A stretch of 64,000 bases of DNA from Streptomyces sp. ISL-10 (lineage in GTDB: Bacteria; Actinomycetota; Actinomycetes; Streptomycetales; Streptomycetaceae). A model generated the notes under the pieces. The model worked only from the letters and a program-made list of their open reading frames with translations, did not search any database and was not told the origin of the DNA. Positions 20,220 to 25,319 of this stretch are shown here, in pieces. Every line of letters starts with the position of its first letter. The first letter of the stretch is position 1. The translations under genes and the position numbers were made by a program. The stretch covers positions 62,001-126,000 of the forward strand of contig NZ_JAGGOJ010000014.1 in assembly GCF_018614575.1 (NCBI RefSeq). The letters are read 5' to 3'.

Positions 20220-21596
20220 TCAGAGGCCGCGCCAGCCGGCTTCGGCCACGCCTCCGGGCACCGCATCACCCGGCTCATAGGGCTCGCGGGTGAACACGAA
20301 CGACCCCAGGTCCAGGTGGCTCACGGAGCCGTCCTCACGACGCACCACCTTGAGCGTCTCGCCCGCGTAGTAACCGTCGAGCCCCGTCCACTCACCATCG
20401 CGACCGGCGACGAAGCGCGACCTCCTGCCTCCACCGCGCAGAGGCTCCAACTCCACGCCCCGATCGGCGACAAGACGCAACCCGTACGCATATGTCCCCC
20501 AGTACCAGGGGCCTGTGAGGTCCAACAGTTCCTGGTCGGCCTCGGGAAGCGGTCGCCACGGCTCGGGGATCCTCGGCTCGGCATCCGCCACGATGCGCAC
20601 GAGATCCGCGGCGACCGTGCCGGTCAGCGGCCCGGACGTCACATTGCTCAGCGCCACAGCGGCGACCCCGTCCTCCACGCTCATCCACAGCCCGGCGAGA
20701 AACCCGGGCAGCGAGCCCGAGTGCCCCACCAGCGTGCGCTGCTCGTTTCGGACGATCTGCATCCCCAGGCCGTAGGAACTGTTCCAGTCCCCGGCTTCAG
20801 CGGGCACCGAGGGAGTACGCATCTCTCGCACGGAAGCGGCGCCCAGCACCCGGTCGTCGCCTTCGGCGAGGAACCAGGCGAACCGGCAGAGGTCTGTCGC
20901 GGTCGACCACAACTGTCCGGCGGGAGCCATGAGCCCGAGGTCCTCGACCGGCTCGGGCAGCAGAACGTCGGCCCAGGGATGCACGGCCCAACCTCCGGCA
21001 TGCGGGGCCCGGGGTTGTGTGCTGGTCCGGCTCAGTCCGAGCGGATCGAGGATCTCCCTCTGGAGAGCCTCCTCCCACGGGACACCGCGGACCGCCTCGA
21101 CGAGCGAACCGAGAAGCGTGTAGCCGGGGTTGGAGTAATGGTGCCTGCGGCCGGGCGGATGCATGCGCGTCTGCTCGCCCAGGACATCGGCGAGTTCGGG
21201 CCGCAGCACGCCGGGAGTCCGTTCCCACCAGGGGGCCGGGGACTCGGCGCTCAAACCGGCGCTGTGCCCAAGAAGCTGAGCGACGGTCACTTCACCGACA
21301 CCCGTGCCCGACAAGTGCTTCTCCAGCGGGTCACTCAGATCGAGCAGCCCCTCGTCACGCAGACGCATCACGAGGACGGCGGTGAACGTCTTGGTGATCG
21401 ACCCGATGCGGTACTGCGTATCGGCGTCGGGTGCGTGACCGTCGATCGAACTGCGACCGCCCGTCCACACCAGACGGCCGTCCCTCAGTACCGCCCCGAC
21501 GAACGAAGGCGTGCGTCCCTCACTCTGCGCCACGGCGATGCGGTGCAGGAGAGCCCTGCGGGTGGCGGGGAGCAGCTCTTCCCAGGATGAAGTCAT
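20220..21596 (-). CDS. Class C beta-lactamase-fold serine hydrolase
   Basis: 458-residue serine hydrolase. The catalytic SxxK is SITK at residues 66-69, the YxN element is YSN near residue 154 in RHHYSNPGYTLLG, and HSGSLPG supplies the third (KTG-like) element. No signal peptide is seen, so it is probably cytoplasmic, unlike secreted AmpC. A C-terminal ~100-residue beta-rich part with GTYAYGLRL resembles the lipocalin-like tails found on such hydrolases. Likely an esterase or peptidase; antibiotic hydrolysis is not implied. Confidence 0.85.
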   Translation of the reverse strand: MTSSWEELLPATRRALLHRIAVAQSEGRTPSFVGAVLRDGRLVWTGGRSSIDGHAPDADTQYRIGSITKTFTAVLVMRLRDEGLLDLSDPLEKHLSGTGVGEVTVAQLLGHSAGLSAESPAPWWERTPGVLRPELADVLGEQTRMHPPGRRHHYSNPGYTLLGSLVEAVRGVPWEEALQREILDPLGLSRTSTQPRAPHAGGWAVHPWADVLLPEPVEDLGLMAPAGQLWSTATDLCRFAWFLAEGDDRVLGAASVREMRTPSVPAEAGDWNSSYGLGMQIVRNEQRTLVGHSGSLPGFLAGLWMSVEDGVAAVALSNVTSGPLTGTVAADLVRIVADAEPRIPEPWRPLPEADQELLDLTGPWYWGTYAYGLRLVADRGVELEPLRGGGRRSRFVAGRDGEWTGLDGYYAGETLKVVRREDGSVSHLDLGSFVFTREPYEPGDAVPGGVAEAGWRGL

Positions 21597-21875
21597 GGGG
21601 CAGGTCTATCGGTGCACGCGCGCTCCGTCGAACCGATTAACAGCGGGCCAAGCCGGCAGAGCCGATGGCTGCGGTCCGAGCCCCGCCCGGAGCGGCACCG
21701 GGGGTCACCGACGGGACCCCGCTGCGGTGCCTTCCGGAGGATTTGTAGGATCTCTCGGCTCATGGCATGAGGCAGCCCGCTGACCTGGTGCTGTGCGACC
21801 AGTCTCACCGTGTGACATAGAAGATCCGTCTCACGAGGGTGGCCATTTCCTCAGCGCAGACGGCAGACTCCGGCG

Positions 21876-22670
21876 GTGACCTCGAACTCCCCGCGCCCCG
21901 CTCGACACGAACCCCTTCCCGCCGACCCTGATCTCTATCCGGATCTCGCGGCTGCTGGCAGTCTGGCCGCGGCCCTGGCACTGGCTGCTGCCGAGCAGGG
22001 GCTCGATCTGGGTGCGGTGCTGAGCAACGATTCGGACCCGCTGCGGACGGTCGGCGTCACCAGCACAACCCCTGGCCGGGAACCCTGCTGGATCTTCATC
22101 GGATCGCAGAGCCGTTGGTTCAACATCAACGGCCCATGCCAAGGCGTTCAGCTGCTCTCGGGCTCGACTTCCGATCTGGGCGAGCTAGCCCGGGCTGCGG
22201 CAGGTTGGCGTGACGGGGCCAGGCTCCGCGAGATCCAGGATGATGCTGCCTTCATTGAGGTGAGCGAGCTGACCGAAGCGCATGAACTCGGTCCGGCCGA
22301 GGCAGTCACCGTGAAGTGGCGACTTCTCTTGGAAGGCTTGCACCAGGACGCCGATCGACTCGACCTCGCCCGCCAGACACTGGCGCTCGCCGAGGCTGCG
22401 TCTGCCGAACCGAAGCTGCGGCAGTTGTATCCGTTCACCAGCCACTGGTCGCTGCACTTCACGACCTGCACCGGGTTCCCGTACTCATGGGACGTGCCGT
22501 TCATCGATCCGCTGAGCGACGGTCGATATCGCGTCTGCGGTCCTTCTCGTGGAACGGTCATCGGTGAAGGCGACACCGCGGCAGCAGCCATCGCCATGGT
22601 GGTGGGCGCGCTTCCGGCGAACTGCGGGCCTGCTGTCGCAGGCACTGCAAACGATCAGCGTCAGGGCTGA
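21876..22670 (+). CDS. DUF6193-like protein
   Basis: 264-residue protein, probably cytoplasmic. A conserved-looking tract LRQLYPFTSHWSLHF near residues 180-195 and the spacing of aromatic residues resemble DUF6193 proteins, which are found in actinomycetes and loosely annotated with natural-product biosynthesis. No catalytic motif was recognised. GTG 21876 is chosen as the most upstream in-frame start in a coding-biased frame; no strong Shine-Dalgarno is present. Its stop overlaps the convergent pseudogene stop by 10 bp. It has no evident partner genes and lies in a patch that looks accessory. Confidence 0.55.
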   Translation: MTSNSPRPARHEPLPADPDLYPDLAAAGSLAAALALAAAEQGLDLGAVLSNDSDPLRTVGVTSTTPGREPCWIFIGSQSRWFNINGPCQGVQLLSGSTSDLGELARAAAGWRDGARLREIQDDAAFIEVSELTEAHELGPAEAVTVKWRLLLEGLHQDADRLDLARQTLALAEAASAEPKLRQLYPFTSHWSLHFTTCTGFPYSWDVPFIDPLSDGRYRVCGPSRGTVIGEGDTAAAAIAMVVGALPANCGPAVAGTANDQRQG

Positions 22671-23724
22671 CTCGCGATCTGACCCTGCATGGTACTGATG
22701 GCCGCGATGACCTTCTCGCCGAAGGGAGTCAGCTTCATGGCCCGGCCGCGTTCCGCGCGTTCAAGCAGTGCCTTTCCGAGGTCCCGTTCGAGGCGGTTGA
22801 TCTGGATCACCAGGGCTGACTGGTGGATGCCGAGATCTCGGGCTGCTTCGGTGAGGGTGGGATAGGACTGGGCTGCCAGTAAGCGCGAGAGTCGTTGCCG
22901 CGCGTATGGGCCGGTGATGGCTTCGCGGAGGATGGCGGGAAGAGCCTCGGCTTCGTCGGCGGTGCGGAGGACGGTCTGGTGGCTGGCTCCGCCGCGTGGC
23001 CGGAGAGGGATGTTGTGGGTGTAGGCCCAGCGGGCCATGTTCGCAGTGCTCATGCCAGCTTCTCGGGCGAGGTCCGGAAGGGTTCGGCGACGATGGACGT
23101 ACTGCTCGATGAGCCATTCCCGGTCGACAGCGCCGCGGCGCCTGTAGTCCTGTGGACCCTCACGGAGAGGGACGCCGTAGTCCCTGGCGAGGTCGGTCAG
23201 CACGCTGCGGGAGAAGCCGGTGAGGGTGGCGATCTGCTGGAGGGACCGGTGTTCGTCGAGGTAGAGCTGGGTGAAGCGCTCTTCCGGGATGGTTTGCCGG
23301 GCTTGCTGCCGGATGCAGCCGGTGGCCCTGGCGGTGTTCTTCGTCAGCGGGGGTGCGGGGGCTGGGTGTTCGTCGAGGACATGACGGATGGCCTCGACGG
23401 TCGTGCCCAGGACATGGGCGGCGTGCTGAACGGGGTGCTGGCGATGGCGGACGAGCTGGTGCAGGCGGGGTAGGTCGACGTGTGCCGGGTCGGGGCCGGG
23501 AAGGGAGAGCCCTGCCAGGTGGCGGGCGGCTGCCAGGTCACGGGCTCGTCGTGAATGTGGTGTGAGGCCAGGAAGGTGAGGGCTTCCTGCTGGAGGGCGT
23601 GTGCGAGTTCGGGGGTCTGAAGCGCGGTGAACCGCAAGGACGTCGCCCGGAACTCTGCCCTGTCGAGCCCGCCCAGGTCGTCGGGGACAGATTCGGCGGG
23701 CAGGCCGCTGAGAGAGGTCGCCCC
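22661..23724 (-). pseudogene. Decayed multi-helix-turn-helix protein (5' truncated, frameshifted)
   Basis: Two overlapping minus-strand frames join into one protein. The upstream frame is open from just after an in-frame TAA at 23727-23725 and reads TSLRFTALQTPELAHAL, ending EPVTWQPP; the downstream frame continues RHLAGLSLPGPDPAHVDL and runs to a TGA at 22661. The shift falls in the GGCGGGCGGC run near 23521-23531. No start codon fits the 5' end, so the N-terminus is missing. The remaining protein has three helix-turn-helix units: SLQQIATLTGFSRSVLTDLA, TLPDLAREAGMSTANMARWA, and a LysR-like winged unit (TLTEAARDLGIHQSALVIQI then LTPFGEKV). One TTA codon occurs near 22890. Multi-HTH proteins of this kind may belong to mobile-element regulators or TniQ-like proteins; that is only a guess. 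Confidence 0.65.
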
Positions 23725-23772
23725 TTACGTCACCCGGAAGAGTGAACGCTCCGAGCTGCGAGTCTCATGATG

Positions 23773-23799
23773 GCTGCATAAATGCCATCCATATGCAGC
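23773..23799. repeat. Inverted repeat in AT-rich scar next to dnaB
   Basis: GCTGCATA at 23773-23780 and TATGCAGC at 23792-23799 form a perfect 8-bp inverted repeat with an 11-bp spacer. The surrounding 23760-23850 stretch is clearly more AT-rich than neighbouring DNA. It could be an operator, or a junction left by insertion. Confidence 0.45.
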
Positions 23800-23846
23800 T
23801 GGCGCTGAGATTATGAAGCTGGATTTGAGACCCTACAAATTCCTGG

Positions 23847-25319
23847 TCACGTCTGGGCCATGTCCACGAAGCGGGAGTAGTGCCCCTGGAACGCCACCGT
23901 GATCGTGGCCGTCGGACCGTTACGGTGCTTCGCCACGATCAGGTCCGCCTCGCCCGCGCGCGGGGACTCCTTCTCGTACGCGTCCTCGCGGTGCAGCAGG
24001 ATGACCATGTCGGCATCCTGCTCGATCGAACCTGATTCACGCAGGTCCGAGACCATGGGTTTCTTGTCCGTACGCTGCTCGGGGCCACGGTTCAGCTGGG
24101 AGAGCGCGATCACGGGGAGCTCCAGCTCCTTGGCGAGGAGCTTGAGGTTTCGCGACATGTCCGAGACCTCCTGCTGCCGGCTCTCGGCACGCTTGGAGCC
24201 ACCCGACTGCATCAGCTGGAGGTAGTCGATGACCACCAGCTTCAGGTCGTTGCGCTGCTTCAGCCGACGGCACTTCGCGCGGATCTCCATCATCGAGAGA
24301 TTCGGCGAGTCGTCGATGTAGAGCGGGGCCTGGGAGACGTCGGGCATCCGGCGCGCCAACCGGGTCCAGTCCTCGTCCGTCATCGTCCCGGAGCGCATGT
24401 GGTGCAGCGCCACACGCGCCTCGGCCGACAGCAGACGCATCGCGATCTCGTTGCGCCCCATCTCAAGGGAGAAGATCACGCTGGGCAGGTTGTTCTTGAT
24501 CGACGCGGCCCGCGCGAAGTCAAGGGCCAGAGTCGACTTGCCCATTGCGGGACGGGCGGCGATGACGATCATCTGGCCGGGGTGCAGGCCGTTCGTCAGG
24601 GAGTCGAAGTCGGTGAAGCCCGTCGGCACACCGGTCATCTCGCCGCTGCGCGAGCCGATCGCCTCGATCTCGTCGAGGGCGCCCTCCATGATGTCGCCGA
24701 GCGGCAGGTAGTCCTCACTCGTCCGCTGTTCGGTGACGGCGTAGATCTCGGCCTGAGCGGAGTTGACGATCTCGTCGACGTCGCCGTCCGCCGCATATCC
24801 CATCTGCGTGATCTTGGTGCCGGCCTCCACGAGCCTGCGCAGCACCGCGCGCTCATGGACGATCTCCGCGTAGTACGACGCGTTGGCGGCCGTCGGCACC
24901 GACTGGACCAGCGTATGCAGATAAGAGGCCCCGCCGACCCGGGTGATCTCACCACGCTTGACGAGCTCGGCCGCGACCGTGATCGGGTCGGCCGGCTCTC
25001 CCTTGGCATAGAGATCGAGGATGGCCTGGAAGACGGTCTCGTGGGCCGGCCGGTAGAAGTCGTGGCCCTTGATGATCTCGACGACATCGGCGATGGCGTC
25101 CTTGGACAGCAGCATGCCGCCGAGAACGGACTGCTCGGCGTCGAGGTCCTGCGGAGGCACGCGCTCGAAGCCGGGACCGCTGTCCCAGCCGGTGCTGTCC
25201 CGGCCGCGGTCGTGCTGGTCGTCACGGCGGCTGTCACTGCCACGGCGGCGAGATGCGGGGAGACGGTCACCCGGACTGTCGGCCGCCCACGGGTCGTCCA
25301 AGGGCTCGGAAATGCTCAC
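23847..25319 (-). CDS. dnaB: Replicative DNA helicase DnaB
   Basis: 490-residue hexameric helicase that unwinds the fork. An N-terminal ~45-residue charged leader precedes the DnaB N domain (QDLDAEQSVLGGMLL), then the RecA-like domain with Walker A ARPAMGKST near residue 233, Walker B VVIDYLQLM, and the DnaB C-terminal segment SDLRESGSIEQDADMV. No intein is present; intein insertion is common in actinobacterial dnaB but the Walker A and other sites are intact here. GTG 25319 is the start. A cluster of DnaA boxes lies 150-240 bp upstream. Confidence 0.97.
   Translation of the reverse strand: MSISEPLDDPWAADSPGDRLPASRRRGSDSRRDDQHDRGRDSTGWDSGPGFERVPPQDLDAEQSVLGGMLLSKDAIADVVEIIKGHDFYRPAHETVFQAILDLYAKGEPADPITVAAELVKRGEITRVGGASYLHTLVQSVPTAANASYYAEIVHERAVLRRLVEAGTKITQMGYAADGDVDEIVNSAQAEIYAVTEQRTSEDYLPLGDIMEGALDEIEAIGSRSGEMTGVPTGFTDFDSLTNGLHPGQMIVIAARPAMGKSTLALDFARAASIKNNLPSVIFSLEMGRNEIAMRLLSAEARVALHHMRSGTMTDEDWTRLARRMPDVSQAPLYIDDSPNLSMMEIRAKCRRLKQRNDLKLVVIDYLQLMQSGGSKRAESRQQEVSDMSRNLKLLAKELELPVIALSQLNRGPEQRTDKKPMVSDLRESGSIEQDADMVILLHREDAYEKESPRAGEADLIVAKHRNGPTATITVAFQGHYSRFVDMAQT

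Follow-up and report, generated by a model that had tools for sequence, protein, structure and literature searches.

A probable TniQ/TnsD-like selector remnant in an internally deleted Tn7-like transposon behind dnaB of Streptomyces

The window, a stretch of 64,000 nucleotides from Streptomyces sp. ISL-10 (contig NZ_JAGGOJ010000014.1, positions 62,001 to 126,000), contains a short element directly behind dnaB, in which a broken tniQ gene and a cargo gene lie between two transposon ends. The features are as follows.

20220-21596, minus strand: serine hydrolase gene (name assigned by eye from the sequence), bordering the insertion site on the far side
21744-23837, minus strand (that of tniQ): whole remnant element, 2094 bp between two transposon ends
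21744-21850, minus strand: right end, beyond the DUF6193 gene; stretch shared with the L013 element, inner border arbitrary
21876-22670, plus strand: full-length DUF6193 cargo gene, 264 aa, convergent with tniQ (PF19692, 138 bits)
22661-23518, minus strand: TniQ C-terminal segment in the frame of the stop codon, with homeodomain-like units and a LysR-type winged helix
22715-22870, minus strand: winged helix of LysR type, residues 297-348 of P0001 (PF00126, E 3.8e-12)
23018-23473, minus strand: three predicted trihelical HTH units (low-confidence AlphaFold2 single-sequence model, sub-threshold Pfam HTH matches), approximately 23369-23473, 23177-23284 and 23018-23122, with helices grouped by eye
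23491-23724, minus strand: preceding TniQ segment in another frame, starting after a stop and without a start codon
23728-23837, minus strand: left (tnsA-side) end, sharing 75-76% identity with the L013 and L048 ends over 106-110 bp
23847-25319, minus strand: target gene dnaB, with the element beginning 9 nt past its stop codon

We translated the segment 22661-23724 in all frames. The minus-strand frame that ends with the stop codon at 22661-22663 stays open to beyond 23518, and the homologous part upstream lies in a different frame, directly after a stop codon (23725-23727) and without a start codon, as the initial annotation had described. Homology to TniQ switches frame between 23491 and 23518, close to position 23525, where the shift had been placed, and the TTA codon mentioned there is present at 22880-22882. 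The stretch 23491-23712 is 57% identical to residues 536-609 of the TniQ protein of L013, an element on a Streptomyces plasmid. The last ~285 codons of the window tniQ are free of stops. The translations and the PF00126 match (46.4 bits, cut-off 26.6) bear out the proposal of a truncated and frameshifted HTH protein with a LysR-like winged helix. The two homeodomain-like units proposed in front of the winged helix are less well defined, as they gave only sub-threshold Pfam HTH matches, and a BLASTP comparison of the two window units with each other gave no alignment. In the AlphaFold2 single-sequence model (mean pLDDT 63), the helices can be grouped by eye into three trihelical units, rather than two, and a winged HTH. 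One such HTH region of the relative L011 exceeds the cut-off of Pfam HTH_17 (30.3 vs 27 bits).

A tblastn search of 72,556 plasmid records matched 52 records, many of them annotated as TniQ family protein, and the best E value of the window protein against plasmid TniQ proteins (2e-124) rules out chance. Judged by homology and domain order, the segment 22661-23724 on the minus strand is the C-terminal part of a predicted TniQ/TnsD-like target selector of about 880 residues, which agrees with the suggestion of a decayed mobile-element regulator or TniQ-like protein. The window copy is an ordinary decayed remnant, and its worth lies in the family and the site behind it. A sequence search of solved structures with the L042 protein gave no TniQ match, only matches at E 0.073 and 0.33, the latter being a LysR-type MetR domain. 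A phage origin of the element was rejected, as 50,697 phage records contained no match; there is one weak relative on a viral contig (22% identity).

The L013 element is 7455 bp long, has TGTAGGGTCTC and TGTAGGATCTC as its inverted ends and is flanked by the 5-bp duplication GCTCG. Ends of this type (TGTAGGATCTC / TGTAGGGTCTC) are present in the window at 23827-23837 and 21744-21754, with inverted-repeat arms at 21741-21754 and 23827-23840 that are 93% complementary. Because the L013 end pair is also found in the window, the TniQ tail lies inside an element of 2094 bp. Both the window and the relatives have TGT...ACA ends with repeated box motifs. In the left end of the window, TCTCA, TCTCA and TGAGA stand at offsets 7, 27 and 70; these offsets recur in many dnaB-linked copies, and the boxes are probable TnsB sites. 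The right end opens a stretch of 930 bp that begins at the terminus and is 87% identical to L013, and the DUF6193 gene is 84% identical to the gene at the same place in L013. While the transposition genes have been lost, this cargo gene appears to be intact. The initial annotation had included neither the two ends nor the cargo gene.

The element retains about 110 bp at its left end, the right end, the cargo gene and the sequence for the TniQ C terminus. It has lost tnsA, tnsB and tnsC, homologues of which are absent from the window, together with the first ~535 codons of tniQ. Presumably a deletion removed these parts and a frameshift broke the remainder of tniQ, so that only the ends and the cargo survived. 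A 5-bp target duplication is absent from the window copy (GAATT before the left end and AATCC after the right end, minus strand), which makes it a remnant and not a whole member of the Tn7-like transposons. The missing duplication could be explained if two copies once stood in tandem, like the pair in L045, and a deletion occurred between them. The window's genome contains no second copy, only a 59-bp match, and a search for tnsB at E 1e-5 found none in this genome, although an empty result of this search does not by itself demonstrate absence; with no tnsB found, the element is presumably immobile now.

In the relatives, the TniQ domain is N-terminal, PF00126 is mostly C-terminal, and the gene follows tnsA-tnsB-tnsC. 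Intact homologues next to a transposase and an AAA ATPase, which had been proposed as a check, do exist, as L013 has consecutive genes for a TnsA-like protein, a transposase, an AAA/TniB ATPase and TniQ, followed by a convergent DUF6193 gene. The homologues are also much longer than the short frame, with 19 relatives of 791-1008 residues when read from the N-terminal match onwards. All seven relatives scanned have the PF06527 TniQ domain at the N terminus, and six have PF00126 toward the C terminus, five of them above the cut-off; the exceptions are L066 (26.5 bits, cut-off 26.6) and L013 (none). The two shortest TniQ relatives, L013 and L062, are without the LysR part, based on Pfam for L013 and on reading its end for L062. 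A CCCH motif like the TnsD zinc finger is present in 19 of 24 TniQ translations, and the other five start too late to include it.

The partner genes were assigned with profiles of differing strength. The TnsA-like proteins of L013 and L055 match NF033179 (TnsA_like_Actin) with 248.3 and 249.7 bits (cut-off 110), and Pfam PF08722 gives 20.5 bits for the L013 protein, under its cut-off of 26.5. The transposase of the relatives carries an HTH and an integrase core. For L013 and L055, the best E values with integrase-core models are 4.9e-21 and 3.4e-21, below the cut-offs of those models (rve in L013, 23 bits, cut-off 32.6), and a Mu transposase C-terminal domain is annotated in L012 and L018. Among the Pfam and NCBIfam profiles, no TnsB-specific family model matched these transposases. 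The TnsC-type ATPase of L013 is above the cut-off for both AAA_22 (47.3 bits) and TniB (39.6 bits) and has no NCBIfam match. Judged by their genes, the relatives appear to possess the components expected of Tn7-like elements, i.e., a TnsB-type transposase, a TnsA-like protein, TnsC and a TniQ with a zinc finger. On a plasmid of Mycolicibacterium vanbaalenii, a second, short TniQ (385 aa, PF06527) follows the long one (L018:9289-10446). Three small proteins (111, 104 and 131 aa) are encoded near the right end of L092 (12260-13391) and in relatives. They recur in 10, 18 and 16 loci, including some dnaB intervals that lack tns genes, and have no Pfam match above cut-off.

The initial annotation had placed the tail in a generic accessory patch. 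Instead, it lies at a recurrent insertion site directly behind dnaB. A search of 295 genomes of the genus Streptomyces with the 180-residue TniQ tail matched 40 places, that of the window among them, in 32 genomes; because the tail was the query, fragments that retain it are over-represented. The remaining 39 TniQ places were all examined and grouped in 34 loci. A dnaB gene is present in 16 of these loci, 15 times close to that of the window and once divergent (L049), and in 15 of the 16 an element end stands 7-11 nt behind the dnaB stop, the exception being L056. The other 18 loci do not show dnaB, and at least three of them end at a contig edge. L043 is a contig made of one element, and in its genome an end follows dnaB where a different contig breaks off (L096); the hydrolase gene usually found next to dnaB is present in L044; and L062 stops at a contig edge.

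To look at the site independently of the protein, we scanned 392 genomes of the genus for the end of dnaB with its stop, followed after 7-13 nt by TGNAGG. The pattern was found in 58 genomes, with the exact TGTAGG in 42. The inverted end (CCTNCA) was found in four of the 392, none of them exact and one at a place also among the 58. When 20 of the 58 places were examined, eight had family genes or a DUF6193 gene (L095, L099, L100, L103, L107, L111, L114 and L102) and 12 had none of the genes sought; in L102, the divergent element lies farther off and does not start at the matched end. Some pattern matches are probably due to chance or far decayed. Among 37 ends, of which 20 came from the 7-13 nt pattern and which were read with a script that allowed 5-14 nt, the spacing behind the dnaB stop was 10 nt in 22, 9 nt in 5, 8 nt in 4, 11 nt in 4 and 7 nt in 2. 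An exact TCTCA or TGAGA box is present in 26 of these ends and absent from 11.

Exact 5-bp duplications at dnaB were found in L052, L055, L099, L103, L113 and L046. The scan covered 40 loci, 11 of which gave some match (that of L094 is probably spurious), and in many loci without a match one end lies outside the examined stretch or has diverged. Empty sites also exist. The interval between dnaB and the hydrolase gene is 0.7 to 9.8 kb when an end stands behind dnaB, and 11 relatives without an exact end comprise three with a near-empty interval (L116, 60 bp; L117, 16 bp; L118, 50 bp) and eight with 301-2830 bp between the genes. Three of these eight (L076, L119 and L123) resemble decayed ends by eye. 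In L125, TGCAGG stands at 12 nt and the interval is 1000 bp long.

The site is not restricted to one dnaB gene. An end stands behind the stop of divergent dnaB genes in L012 (7 nt), a plasmid of Mycolicibacterium alvei, and in L049 (10 nt) and L132 (8 nt), which would be plasmids as well. In L128, from another family, an end lies 14 nt past a dnaB-like gene. A wider search with the last 250 TniQ residues matched 9 of 246 genomes, five of them outside the genus, and one of these five shows the link with dnaB in the stretches examined. No dnaB is present in the stretches examined for L126 (a short contig), L127, L129 and L130, all outside the genus; G460 was covered at one of its three places.

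Two tandem elements lie 5 bp apart behind dnaB in L045 (4241-16880), which suggests that target immunity is weak or absent. Short elements with both ends behind dnaB, in which no tns genes were found, are present in L103 (9167-12432), L106 and L109. That of L103 is 3266 bp long, with an exact duplication and a DUF6193 gene, and these three may be non-autonomous forms.

Elements are also found at other places. Close relatives are inserted in plasmids away from dnaB (L013, L015 and L092), and the TniQ proteins of L092 and of the dnaB-located L061 share 97% identity. By analogy with the two-pathway life of Tn7, this pair hints at a second targeting pathway that may operate without a recognised TnsE; no second selector was identified in these elements. 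In more distant clades, the elements lie 1-22 nt past the stop codons of other genes, which we take from reading the sequence to be NlpC/P60-like (L066 and L067), a gene with an OmpA-like C terminus (L048) and GH15-like (L073); on the same basis, the L075 element lies near what is presumably a tRNA-Met gene. L066, L067, L048, L073 and L075 would form a natural series of retargeted selectors. In a quick tree of 19 TniQ proteins, the dnaB-located elements are scattered over several divergent lineages.

Several other explanations have to be weighed. The PF00126 match at the C terminus could indicate a decayed gene for an ordinary LysR regulator. However, the winged helix is at the C-terminal instead of the N-terminal end, the LysR substrate-binding domain is absent among the matches, and the full-length relatives are TniQ proteins. 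The initial annotation had already called the architecture unlike that of ordinary LysR regulators, and the TniQ homologues and the domain order refute the LysR reading, to which we attach almost no credence. The frameshift near 23518 lies in a G+C-rich stretch of a single assembly and might be a sequencing error, which we consider unlikely. As the 5' side of tniQ is also cut off, beside the transposon end, the remnant reading is independent of the frameshift. It is also conceivable that the C-terminal frame of 180 residues still encodes a functional DNA-binding protein that has been domesticated, for example to act as a repressor or to occupy the dnaB site and so keep new insertions out. The stop-free last ~285 codons would fit with this, as would the recurrence of C-terminal pieces annotated 'LysR family transcriptional regulator' in public records (L012, L017 and L091) and the uneven distribution of window-only changes over the codon positions (12, 6 and 16). 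However, tail-keeping fragments are over-counted with the tail as the query, and the intact homologue L043 gives 13, 10 and 13, so that the codon positions do not separate the two cases. We regard domestication as quite improbable.

With regard to the site, dnaB could be a passive hot spot, where insertions survive because they lie behind an essential gene and where TniQ has no specificity for dnaB. The positions of other clades 1-22 nt behind other stops and of L075 near tRNA-Met are in line with this. On the other hand, the insertions at dnaB have a single orientation (42 exact ends against 0 exact inverted ends), all 37 ends keep a spacing of 7-11 nt, which is 10 nt for 22 of them, and divergent dnaB genes are re-used. 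This makes a passive hot spot very unlikely.

The explanation that we consider highly probable is that the window contains the DNA-binding tail of a TniQ/TnsD-like selector in an internally deleted Tn7-like transposon, which inserted at an attachment site formed by the 3' end of dnaB. Several observations speak against it: the window copy has no target duplication, 18 of the 34 loci do not show dnaB, elements with close TniQ proteins lie at other places, one of five genomes outside the genus shows the link, dnaB-located elements are scattered over divergent TniQ lineages, and no TnsB-specific model matched. This 3' end is probably the main attachment site of the Tn7-like family and would be read by the C-terminal HTH array. 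Seen in the relatives are the order tnsA-tnsB-tnsC-tniQ-cargo, the ends, the 5-bp duplications, the fixed place and orientation, the spacing, the empty sites and the domain order. The reading of DNA by TniQ, including that of dnaB, is proposed by analogy. The C-terminal HTH array and LysR-type winged helix would bind the conserved last codons of dnaB, and the N-terminal TniQ/zinc-finger part would recruit the AAA+ protein TnsC. As in Tn7, TnsC may then bring in the transposase, and the ends bound by TnsA and TnsB would be placed about 10 nt beyond the dnaB stop, with the tnsA end first, so that the essential gene is spared.

With more reserve, we favour a joint reading of all places. There may be an actinobacterial Tn7-like family whose selector, consisting of TniQ, a homeodomain-like HTH array and a LysR-type winged helix, recognises the 3' codons of genes for dnaB-type helicases, on chromosomes as well as plasmids and across more than one family. 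Near-identical elements would enter plasmids elsewhere, which would amount to two pathways as in Tn7, with no recognised TnsE, and related clades would have re-aimed the array to other gene ends.

Tn7 generates a 5-bp duplication, its tnsA-side end adjoins the target gene, and TnsD has a length of 508 residues. Unlike TnsD, the selector described here has about 880 residues and a C-terminal array ending in a LysR-type winged helix. No TnsE was seen in these elements, in a comparison that did not include a profile search for TnsE. According to the part of the source consulted, the binding site of TnsD is the 3' end of the glmS coding sequence, and Tn7 inserts about 20 bp behind the stop (PMC2918618). 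The elements here resemble Tn7 at attTn7 in having a 3' gene end as the target, an intergenic insertion and one orientation, with binding by the selector presumed, and also in the CCCH zinc finger in the N-terminal part of the selector and the partners TnsA, TnsB and TnsC; they differ in that the target is dnaB and not glmS and in the insertion about 10 nt behind the stop (PMC2918618, as far as consulted).

Benler et al. (2021), in the part available to us, describe a second, actinobacterial Tn7-like clade, none of whose members is experimentally characterized (PMC8649781). The elements here come from the same host phylum and may belong to that clade; 'dnab' is absent from the main text of that paper. 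Faure et al. (2023) report long C-terminal multi-HTH extensions of TnsD proteins, proposed to read the attachment site (PMC10293859, seen in part). The selector here likewise combines a TniQ core with a long C-terminal extension of multiple HTH domains, and neither 'dnab' nor 'lysr' occurs in the main text of PMC10293859. In the sections consulted, a 2024 review lists few attachment sites of Tn7-like elements, namely glmS, comM, yhiN, parE, tRNA genes and CRISPR-guided sites, and Tn5053 is said to target plasmid resolution sites (PMC11406308). Tn5053-type elements share TniQ and a TniB-type ATPase with the elements here, which differ by the TnsA-like gene and by a target at a gene 3' end; 'dnab' is absent from the main text of this review. 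The only paper found with both 'TniQ' and 'dnaB' appears, in the part seen, to use DnaB as a negative control (PMC10991518). In the openly searchable literature, we found no description of a dnaB site for Tn7-like, TniQ or TnsD elements; subscription papers, preprints and supplements lay outside this search and may already record it. Searches for TniQ or Tn7-like elements in Streptomyces and for dnaB as an island site showed no such site among the matches listed.

If the proposed role of dnaB is true, it adds an attachment site in a genus of antibiotic producers, where 42 to 58 of the 392 Streptomyces genomes sampled have an end behind dnaB, and it would offer a landing place shaped by evolution at which DNA could be inserted. 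The related selectors with different target genes could then reveal the rule by which such proteins read DNA. The annotations of L012, L017 and L091 also suggest that some 'LysR family' fragments in databases are in reality TniQ tails.
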